Assembly (NCBI GenBank): GCA_019638675.1
Contig: JAHBTE010000001.1
Span: forward strand, 1,954,605 to 2,018,604
Length of the DNA: 64,000 nucleotides
DNA from: Fimbriimonadaceae bacterium
Lineage (GTDB): Bacteria; Armatimonadota; Fimbriimonadia; Fimbriimonadales; Fimbriimonadaceae
Reading direction: 5' to 3'
Positions 59,374-61,927 of the stretch are shown one piece after another (within the stretch, counting starts at the first letter, position 1; each line of letters begins with the position of its first letter). Made by a program: the position numbers and the translations under genes. The notes under the pieces are model-generated. The model searched no databases. It saw nothing but the letters and a program-made list of their open reading frames with translations, and had not been told where the DNA came from.

Positions 59374-59433
59374 TCCCAATTTAGACTCCCTGTAACCGTA
59401 ACGCAGACCGTCATCAACCGTCAGTTGTGTAAG

Positions 59434-60078
59434 ATGGTCACGAGGATAGCCTTGAAATTCGATCAATCGCCGTTGAGCGAAAAATCGAACGCCATACCAG
59501 CGGGTTTAGTGGCAGATTCGGATGAAGCTTTGGTGCATCAAGCGCGCCAGGGTGATTTCTCCGCATTTGAACGGCTTTTTGAACGGCACCGCAACCTCGT
59601 ATACCGTTTTGCTTACCAAATGGCTCCTCGGCGGGATGATGCCGAAGATATTGTTCAGGAAGTATTTGTGAAGGCTTATCAGAATCTGGGTCGCTACCGA
59701 GACGAAGCGAAATTCACAACTTGGCTCCTCAGAATCACGGCTAACCTAGGAACGGATAAAGCTCGAATGTCCACGCGCCGGACAAACCTTGAGCAAAAAG
59801 AAGCGATGGGTGCTCTGAGTTGGATGACGGTTGGTACGTCAACCGAAGATCCAGTAGAGAACCTAGAACAAGAGCGCAGAAGAGAATTACTCCGCAAGGC
59901 GATTGCCGCTTTGCCAGAACATCACCGAAATGCGATAGTTTTTCGTGACATTGAGGAGATGGATTACGACGATATTGCCGAATATTTCAAATGTTCGGTA
60001 GGTGGCGCGAAGCTCCGAGTTCTACGGGCTCGAAGAGCATTGCGCGACCGACTTGCACCTCTCATGGAGGGCGAATAA
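59434..60078 (+). CDS. ECF-type RNA polymerase sigma factor
   Basis: The 214-residue factor has sigma-2 (about 40-110; FSAFERLFERHRNLVYRFAY, then DAEDIVQEVFVKAYQNL and KFTTWLLRITANL) and sigma-4 (about 150-205; ALPEHHRNAIVFRDIEEMDYDDIAEYF). There are no regions 1 or 3. It should recruit polymerase to stress promoters in response to the envelope signal held by the next gene, which starts four bases later. TTG 59425 and ATG 59434 are both in frame; I chose the ATG. Confidence 0.92.
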   Translation: MVTRIALKFDQSPLSEKSNAIPAGLVADSDEALVHQARQGDFSAFERLFERHRNLVYRFAYQMAPRRDDAEDIVQEVFVKAYQNLGRYRDEAKFTTWLLRITANLGTDKARMSTRRTNLEQKEAMGALSWMTVGTSTEDPVENLEQERRRELLRKAIAALPEHHRNAIVFRDIEEMDYDDIAEYFKCSVGGAKLRVLRARRALRDRLAPLMEGE

Positions 60079-60081
60079 GAA

Positions 60082-60939
60082 ATGAACCAAGATCATTTGA
60101 ATGATGAACAGATGGACAGCCTGATGCGCCAAATTTTTGGTGAGTCAGAAGCTGGCGATCTTGCGATGCTGGAAGGAGTCTCCCCAGCGGCTTTAGAACA
60201 AGAGAGAATTGTTCTGAACAATTTGCGCTCGGAACTTCGAGGGCTGAAGGAAGTTCCCGAATGCCAGCTTTCAACCGAGCACCTCCGCAACGCGATCTTA
60301 AACGAAGGTTCGGGCAGTAAGCGAACCGCGCCTTTGACTTCGTTCTGGAAGTTCGCGGTGCCAGTAGCCGCTTGTGCGGCAATCGCAAGCTGGATGATGT
60401 TTGGGCCGAAGACGATGACCCAAACTGGTCAACCATCAAGCGGCAATATCGCCAAGAATTCTGATCACGTGGCTCAACCGAGTTTGGACAGGGCTCCGAG
60501 TACGGCTGAAATTTCAAGAGATACGCAAGAGCCTGCAGTTTCAAATGAGGAAGTTACTCCTCCGGTGGTACAGGATGAGCCAGAACCACAAACCAAGCAA
60601 CCAGTTAAGAGCAATCGGCGACCTCGTGGAAACAGCGGTCGGCTGGCAAGCAACACCAGTACCCCGGTGGTCAACCTGCAAGATCTCGCATCAAGTGCAG
60701 TAGGAGCGATTACCATGGGATTTGGTGGTGCAGGCAATGCCGCAATGAAAGCGGCTCCGAGTAGCGATAACGTCAGCGATTCTGCTAACCGAGCAATTGA
60801 ATCTTTTGCTGGTTCAGAACGAGAAACAGCCCCTGCCGACAGCAATAAAGTCGTGCTAGTCGGTGGTGGTTCACAGTTTGATGCCCGGGCAAATTCAGCG
60901 ATGGAGGTTGACAAGCGCGATGTCGTTTTTGGCGGCTAG
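60082..60939 (+). CDS. Anti-sigma factor with single membrane helix
   Basis: The 285-residue protein has an N-terminal cytoplasmic region (about 1-85) with a helical zinc-free anti-sigma-like pattern (QMDSLMRQIFGES, then SAALEQ-type helix and ELRGLKEVPECQLS). A membrane helix follows (about 88-107), then a long low-complexity periplasmic region rich in Ser, Asn, Pro and Gln. The position directly after the ECF sigma gene is the main support. No ZAS motif (HxxxCxxC) is visible. The final codons overlap the start of the HtrA-like gene by 20 bases. Confidence 0.75.
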   Translation: MNQDHLNDEQMDSLMRQIFGESEAGDLAMLEGVSPAALEQERIVLNNLRSELRGLKEVPECQLSTEHLRNAILNEGSGSKRTAPLTSFWKFAVPVAACAAIASWMMFGPKTMTQTGQPSSGNIAKNSDHVAQPSLDRAPSTAEISRDTQEPAVSNEEVTPPVVQDEPEPQTKQPVKSNRRPRGNSGRLASNTSTPVVNLQDLASSAVGAITMGFGGAGNAAMKAAPSSDNVSDSANRAIESFAGSERETAPADSNKVVLVGGGSQFDARANSAMEVDKRDVVFGG

Positions 60940-61927
60940 CCTTGCAGTTGCCATAACACAGTTCGATGAACCGCAAGAGCGGTTCATCGATACCCCCATT
61001 CGCGCCGTCAACTCGTATCAATCTGCGGCTTGGAATTCTATTGTTGATGCAGTCGCTGTACTGCCTGATTCTCACGGAAAGCCGTTTGGTCTCGCAGTCA
61101 TGATTGATGACAAAGGCCACTTCGTAGCCCACGTTTCGAGCCTTGTTGAAGAACCAATCACGGCAAAAATGAGCGGCGGGCTCGATGTTCGCCTTGGTCG
61201 TATTGGATTTGATAAGGAAACTCAACTGGTATTGCTCGGTGCCCAAAATTGGGTGACCGGTAAACGCCAAGCTGTACGAGTCGCGCCAGAAGTGAAGAAG
61301 GGTGAGCTAATGGTTGCCACCGTCAATGGCCCAGTTCGTGGTCAGCTGACCAGCGATTCGCGGCCAGGAATTTTCTTGCCTAGCTTAAGATTCGTCCCGC
61401 TTGCTGAAATCCAGCTTGAATCTAAAGATTTTCCCGTCGGCGGAGGAGTTGTGTTCGATAACTCCGGAAGCTTGGTTGGCATCCTTGGTGCCATCTTGAA
61501 TCCGATGTATCCAGAGACCGCCATGGCTACTCAGAGCGTACGAAACGACCCGAAGCAGTTTGGCCCTGCTGGTTTAACTGTCGCCTACGCGCTTGGCCCC
61601 AAGATTCTCAACCGGATTGTAAAAGGTTTCAGAACAGAAAGTCATAAGGTCGAACACCCAAGCGTTGGAATCTTTTTCCGCGAAGGCGATGGCCCAGGCC
61701 AGATTATCGTAGATGAGATTACAAAGGGAAGTCCATGTGATCTCGCTGGCGTGAAGGCGGGCGATCAAATCATGTCGGCGAACGGCGTTCCGATGGGCAA
61801 CGTTATTGATCTCGCCGCAATGCTGTTTGAGCTAGAACCAGGTTCCGACCTGACACTCAAGCTGTACCGCAACGGTGAGCAGTTTGAAGCCAAGATGAAA
61901 GTCGGCGTGCAAAAGAACCTGAGCTAA
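60920..61927 (+). CDS. HtrA/DegP-like pseudoprotease with PDZ domain
   Basis: The 335-residue product from ATG 60920 has a possible signal peptide (1-12), a chymotrypsin-type double beta-barrel (about 30-240) and one PDZ domain (about 246-330). Conserved HtrA landmarks can be followed, but with catalytic losses. The His region reads VAHVSSLV (His71 kept). The Asp region reads GFDKETQLVLL, with Gln102 where the catalytic Asp should be. The Ser region reads PVGGGVV (172-178) instead of GNSGG. The PDZ domain has an intact core (DLAGVKAGDQIMSANGV). It is therefore probably a sensor or adaptor, not a protease. It overlaps the anti-sigma gene by 20 bases. Confidence 0.8.
   Translation: MSFLAASLAVAITQFDEPQERFIDTPIRAVNSYQSAAWNSIVDAVAVLPDSHGKPFGLAVMIDDKGHFVAHVSSLVEEPITAKMSGGLDVRLGRIGFDKETQLVLLGAQNWVTGKRQAVRVAPEVKKGELMVATVNGPVRGQLTSDSRPGIFLPSLRFVPLAEIQLESKDFPVGGGVVFDNSGSLVGILGAILNPMYPETAMATQSVRNDPKQFGPAGLTVAYALGPKILNRIVKGFRTESHKVEHPSVGIFFREGDGPGQIIVDEITKGSPCDLAGVKAGDQIMSANGVPMGNVIDLAAMLFELEPGSDLTLKLYRNGEQFEAKMKVGVQKNLS

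Follow-up and report, generated by a model that had tools for sequence, protein, structure and literature searches.

A catalytically dead HtrA-fold protein encoded with an ECF sigma factor and its anti-sigma factor in Armatimonadota, a candidate receptor for the anti-sigma tail

Introduction

The best-known bacterial envelope-stress cascade is that of Escherichia coli, in which the ECF sigma factor RpoE, its anti-sigma factor RseA and RseB work with DegS and RseP; the corresponding Pseudomonas aeruginosa proteins are AlgU, MucA and MucB, with AlgW and MucP. DegS and AlgW recognise C-termini through their PDZ domains, and RseB and MucB, periplasmic shields encoded in the sigma operons, block site-1 cleavage of the anti-sigma factors (PMC8103513, PMC8545111). 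In Mycobacterium tuberculosis, sigE is linked to rseA-htrA-tatB; there, Rv1223 is described as an essential serine protease, and RseA is removed by PknB/ClpC1P2 (PMC10027907). MamO, a magnetosome HtrA-type pseudoprotease that acts in biomineralisation and metal binding, keeps the catalytic His and Asp (PMC4794232). Here, we describe a computational analysis of an Armatimonadota locus in which an HtrA-fold protein is encoded directly behind an ECF sigma factor and its anti-sigma factor.

Results

An overlapping three-gene operon

The window, a 64,000-nt stretch of a Fimbriimonadaceae genome (Armatimonadota; contig JAHBTE010000001.1), contains at positions 59434–61927 three genes on the same strand. 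Their products are, in this order, a sigma factor of the ECF type, an anti-sigma factor that is predicted to cross the membrane once and an HtrA-fold protein that carries a single PDZ domain. The anti-sigma gene starts 3 nt past the sigma stop codon, and its end overlaps the start of the third gene by 20 nt in the +1 frame (60920–60939, plus strand); in 49 of 64 non-redundant family loci the ATG likewise lies at −20, counted from the last base of the anti-sigma stop codon. From this overlap, coupled translation of the anti-sigma factor and the HtrA-fold protein is suggested. An earlier note on this DNA had described the three genes as tightly spaced or overlapping and had assigned them to an ECF sigma factor, a single-helix membrane protein placed as an anti-sigma factor and an HtrA fold with a PDZ domain; the spacing is as it said, and the domain and fold searches below bear out the assignments, that of the anti-sigma factor as a candidate. 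The trio is flanked by a dicarboxylate symporter gene before it and a convergent recJ gene after it, and the end of the minus-strand recJ falls within the final four bases of the third gene (61924–61927). The locus is nearly identical to that of MAG ACE_ARM8 (CP075366.1).

An ECF sigma factor with a conserved upstream promoter motif

The first gene (59434–60078, plus strand) encodes 214 residues from its ATG, an alternative TTG start at 59425 being possible. The protein consists of Sigma70 regions 2 and 4 only (Pfam Sigma70_r2, 1e-18; r4_2, 4e-12) and scores above the cut-off of the ECF superfamily (TIGR02937, 104.7 vs 42.9 bits), and its nearest solved structures in sequence are RpoE, AlgU/SigH and SigW. 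A predicted promoter, GTAAC-N16-CGTC (59398–59422, plus strand; −35 at 59398–59402, −10 at 59419–59422), ends 11 nt before the ATG. The pattern GWAAC-N16-CGTC lies upstream of the sigma gene in 63 of 72 family loci, with a spacing of exactly 16 nt and at a near-constant distance, compared with a background in which a looser pattern occurs in about 7.6% of random 260-nt stretches; several of the exceptions have CGTT in place of CGTC. The sigma factor is thus predicted to be autoregulated from an AAC/CGT-type promoter.

A regulon search of the window genome yielded 8 motif sites, four of them 5–22 nt before a start codon (the sigma gene itself and three genes for apparently secreted proteins), vs 32 matches to a reversed control pattern, and no target was conserved across genomes; we claim no regulon. 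The three secreted candidates (at L224, L225 and L228), of which one is a DUF2330 protein and another is Gly-rich, are possible sigma targets; with a motif so close to the start codon, their messages would be near-leaderless.

A zinc-less anti-sigma factor with a conserved C-terminal tail

The second gene (60082–60939, plus strand) encodes a putative class I-like anti-sigma factor without the zinc motif, recognised by its position, a cytoplasmic helical domain, one transmembrane segment and a disordered, Pro-rich outer part. In the structural model, three N-terminal helices are joined through a linker to a fourth, a layout that resembles the three-helix bundle, linker and additional helix of class I anti-sigma domains (PMC7406223); in the fold search, the cytoplasmic domains of MucA and RskA gave weak matches (Z about 4). 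A Pfam search found no recognisable ASD or zinc-finger domain in the window protein, which is not decisive, since many class I anti-sigma factors lack the zinc motif (PMC7406223). The orthologue from family f13 matches zf-HC2 above the cut-off (3e-8), and with the sub-threshold scores of the f2 and f4 orthologues this ties the zinc-less window protein to anti-sigma factors via its relatives. The single transmembrane segment (60346–60402, plus strand) corresponds to a hydropathy peak at residues 89–109 and a model helix at 86–107. In an alignment of 64 family members, the most conserved motif, VPExQLSxERLRxAIL, spans the linker and helix 4 (60253–60300, plus strand).

Conservation also returns at the very end of the protein. 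While the majority residue per column accounts for about 20% in the outer linker of the family alignment, it accounts for 34–66% in the last ~30 residues (60847–60936, plus strand; VVLV...A.EV...VVFGG-COOH), where a hydrophobic strand is followed by TGA..A.EV and a C-terminal VVxGG (..TGA..A.EV...VVxGG-COOH). Of the 57 tails that carry the A.E motif, 47 have Glu at position −12 from the end. Modelled alone, the tail is a predicted beta hairpin of modest confidence (strands 256–264 and 271–277, pLDDT about 60–78). Its ending differs by family: -VVxGG in f1 and f2, -CSF or -GSF in f3, -VE in f19 and -SAY in f13.

Because the start of the downstream gene shares its bases with the last six tail codons, which are thereby partly constrained, we considered whether tail conservation is a by-product of a Shine-Dalgarno sequence or of the gene overlap. 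Neither explanation holds for the TGA..A.EV block, since it is not part of the overlap and every synonymous codon occurs in it; the Glu, Val, Ala and Gly codons of the tail vary freely, which argues that the tail is selected at the protein level. For the last six residues an overlap effect is only partly ruled out: of the 15 loci that lack the ATG at −20, 12 nevertheless have a hydrophobic residue followed by Gly-Gly at the C-terminus.

An HtrA fold without a catalytic triad

The third gene (60920–61927, plus strand; ATG at 60920) encodes 335 residues, with a protease-like region at about 32–240 and a PDZ domain at about 247–333 (Pfam PDZ_2, 5e-12), the order of a trypsin-like fold followed by PDZ that is found in HtrA/DegS (S1C) proteins. 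In a fold search, residues 31–335 of the AlphaFold2 model (pLDDT 87.5) aligned with HtrA proteases at Z scores of 25.9 (Rv0983), about 24 (DegQ and DegP) and 23.8 (DegS), too high for a chance resemblance. The Do-family model TIGR02037 stayed under its cut-off (44.7 vs 416.2 bits) and matched the PDZ part only.

When the window protein is aligned by profile with DegQ/DegP and with active HtrAs from its own genome, all three positions of the His-Asp-Ser triad prove to be lost: Ser73 (61136–61138) stands at the His position, Gln102 (61223–61225) at the Asp position and Val173-Gly174 (61436–61441; all plus strand) at the Ser position, where the alignments differ by one residue. The placement of Ser73 agrees with the model boundaries (strand E67-71, then a short helix at 72–74). 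The earlier note had reported Asp and Ser as lost, which is correct but incomplete; its implicit reading of a retained catalytic His can be ruled out, as the catalytic His position is two residues beyond His71. Whether the protein is always catalytically dead in relatives had been proposed as a check, and an intact triad was found in none of the 68 family copies aligned, in which position 73 is never His. Conservation of the fold across long branches rules out recent pseudogene decay. Judged by these alignments, the lost triad means that the window protein cannot carry out standard-mechanism site-1 cleavage of the anti-sigma factor.

Conservation and co-loss of the trio

Among 85 Fimbriimonadaceae genomes, the pseudoprotease is present in 76 and the sigma factor in 76; both occur in 74 and neither in 7 (Fisher p = 2.5e-7), and the 4 mismatches all lie at contig ends. 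The order sigma, anti-sigma, pseudoprotease is constant in every readable family locus (72). The two other checks proposed beforehand, for the same gene order in relatives and for HtrA-like copies without the sigma/anti-sigma pair, thus came out in favour of a fixed unit, and conservation in the 85 related genomes rules out chance or misannotation. Two of the 7 genomes with neither gene, G060 and G061, are near-complete (97%) at 1.5 Mb and are without all three genes, as expected of a unit lost whole.

Beyond this family, a sigma factor is paired with an incomplete-triad HtrA in at least six more families of Armatimonadota, the full trio in f2, f3, f4, f13 and f19, and the sigma/HtrA combination in f33. 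In other families the His position is mostly Glu or Asp; f2 and f33 retain the catalytic Asp, and f13, f19 and f33 the catalytic Ser. As the broad pseudo-HtrA profile also catches active HtrAs, prevalence outside the order is judged on inspected loci only. In a tree whose deepest fork is weakly supported and whose long branches are flagged, the linked sigma factors of f1–f4, f13 and f19 cluster away from the sigma factor beside an active HtrA. A further sigma-linked HtrA, in genome G227 (L264:1320-2877), has Asn in place of His, keeps Asp and Ser and carries an extra C-terminal domain.

Other proteases and a parallel operon in the genome

The window genome also encodes active HtrAs, an M50 site-2 protease (PF02163 match in a 574-aa frame, G000:C1:1739982-1741520) and at least seven S41 proteases; any of these enzymes could cut the anti-sigma factor. 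A second, paralogous ECF operon (L219:3508-7095; G000:C1:1045007-1048594) encodes a sigma factor, a zf-HC2 anti-sigma factor, a MucB/RseB-like protein (weak match) and an active HtrA, and a Fur-like gene on the opposite strand adjoins its end. It shares the sigma/anti-sigma/HtrA layout with the trio; unlike the trio, it has an intact His-Asp-Ser triad, two PDZ domains, a zinc-finger anti-sigma factor and a sigma factor of a different clade.

Discussion

A tail that is conserved at the end of a linker free to vary calls for a partner, and the nearest candidate is the PDZ-bearing pseudoprotease, which is probably co-translated with the tail and is always present with it. Shielding by RseB/MucB and the reading of C-termini by the DegS and AlgW PDZ domains make such a receptor or shield plausible. 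We therefore suggest that the dead HtrA is a periplasmic receptor, made together with the anti-sigma factor, that would hold the anti-sigma tail and gate cleavage by another protease; taken as a whole, this explanation has in our judgement about an even chance of being right. In it, an autoregulated ECF sigma factor would be tethered to the membrane by its anti-sigma factor, and co-translation would supply the non-cutting HtrA-fold protein in stoichiometric amounts. The conserved tail would be held in its groove or by its PDZ domain, probably with a protective, RseB-like effect. A ligand or a misfolded envelope protein might then compete for the tail site and alter the complex, whereupon an active HtrA or an S41 protease would make the site-1 cut and the M50 protease the site-2 cut.

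The change of the tail from family to family accompanies a change of the partner, as expected for a receptor; such matching would also arise from operon linkage and vertical descent alone. To our knowledge, PDZ domains do not typically bind a C-terminal Gly-Gly, and the tail could bind something other than the pseudoprotease. The earlier note saw only two ways for the signal to pass, through binding or through a different protease. With a triad that is never intact in the family and a trio that is linked in every readable locus, and with other proteases in the genome, this is a reasonable reading, and the note's interpretation is borne out in part. We advance more tentatively, as somewhat doubtful, a wider proposal. 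ECF switches whose site-1 protease has turned receptor would form a class that spans the phylum, and in them a dead HtrA-PDZ protein from an overlapping gene would hold or release the anti-sigma factor's own C-terminal ligand and so set sigma activity without cutting.

The pseudoprotease might instead promote cleavage, by presenting the anti-sigma factor to an active HtrA or by entering a mixed trimer with one. HtrA proteins form trimers, and MamO promotes MamE-dependent proteolysis (PMC4794232). In four f3 loci (L197:354-5888, L186:3311-9345, L196 and L183), moreover, a second sigma module follows the dead module at a distance of one gene, and in three of these loci (all but L183) the active HtrA of the second module can be seen; the window genome carries this active module elsewhere, as the L219 operon. 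In the window genome, however, the active HtrAs are unlinked to the trio operon, and we regard such an adaptor as unlikely. An equally unlikely reading places the third protein outside signal transmission, as a sigma target or an envelope chaperone that is merely co-expressed with the switch; complete co-presence and co-loss, the gene overlap and a conserved anti-sigma tail in need of a partner all speak against it.

The conserved hydrophobic C-terminus of the anti-sigma factor, together with the seven or more S41 enzymes of the genome, would also fit a degron for a C-terminal protease that the pseudoprotease masks, although none of the S41 genes is linked to the operon; we consider this slightly less probable again, and it is largely a sub-case of the receptor model. 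That the third protein still cuts through non-canonical residues, for instance His71 and another nucleophile, is highly improbable. In its favour, His71 is common in the family (45 of 68 copies); against it, many members lack His71, the Asp and Ser positions are occupied by Gln and Val/Gly, and other families have Glu or Asp at the His position.

Our preferred reading, the dead HtrA as receptor, joins elements that are already known singly, the gene order from M. tuberculosis and dead HtrA-fold proteins from MamO. In the literature searched, which mostly left subscription journals aside, we found no description of a dead HtrA that controls or partners an anti-sigma factor. The locus shares with M. 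tuberculosis the order sigma, anti-sigma, HtrA-fold protein, and differs in that its triad is gone, whereas Rv1223 is described as a serine protease. Like MamO, the window protein has a protease domain that presumably no longer cuts and, if we are right, a new role; unlike MamO, which has no sigma link, it has lost all three catalytic residues.

The locus also resembles the RpoE and AlgU systems, with which it shares an RpoE/AlgU-type ECF sigma factor, a membrane anti-sigma factor, a predicted periplasmic HtrA-fold PDZ protein and a site-2 protease in the genome. Of the RseA-DegS-RseP cascade, the M50 step has a candidate counterpart, while site-1 cleavage by the HtrA protein would be lost with the triad. 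Unlike in those systems, the HtrA-fold protein is encoded in the operon and is catalytically dead, the anti-sigma factor has a conserved C-terminal tail, and the operon is without an RseB-like gene. The tail offers a specific, testable ligand, and the parallel active-HtrA operon of the same genome allows sensing and cutting to be compared side by side. If the receptor model is true, there is a counterpart to the RpoE-type cascade whose protease serves only as a sensor.
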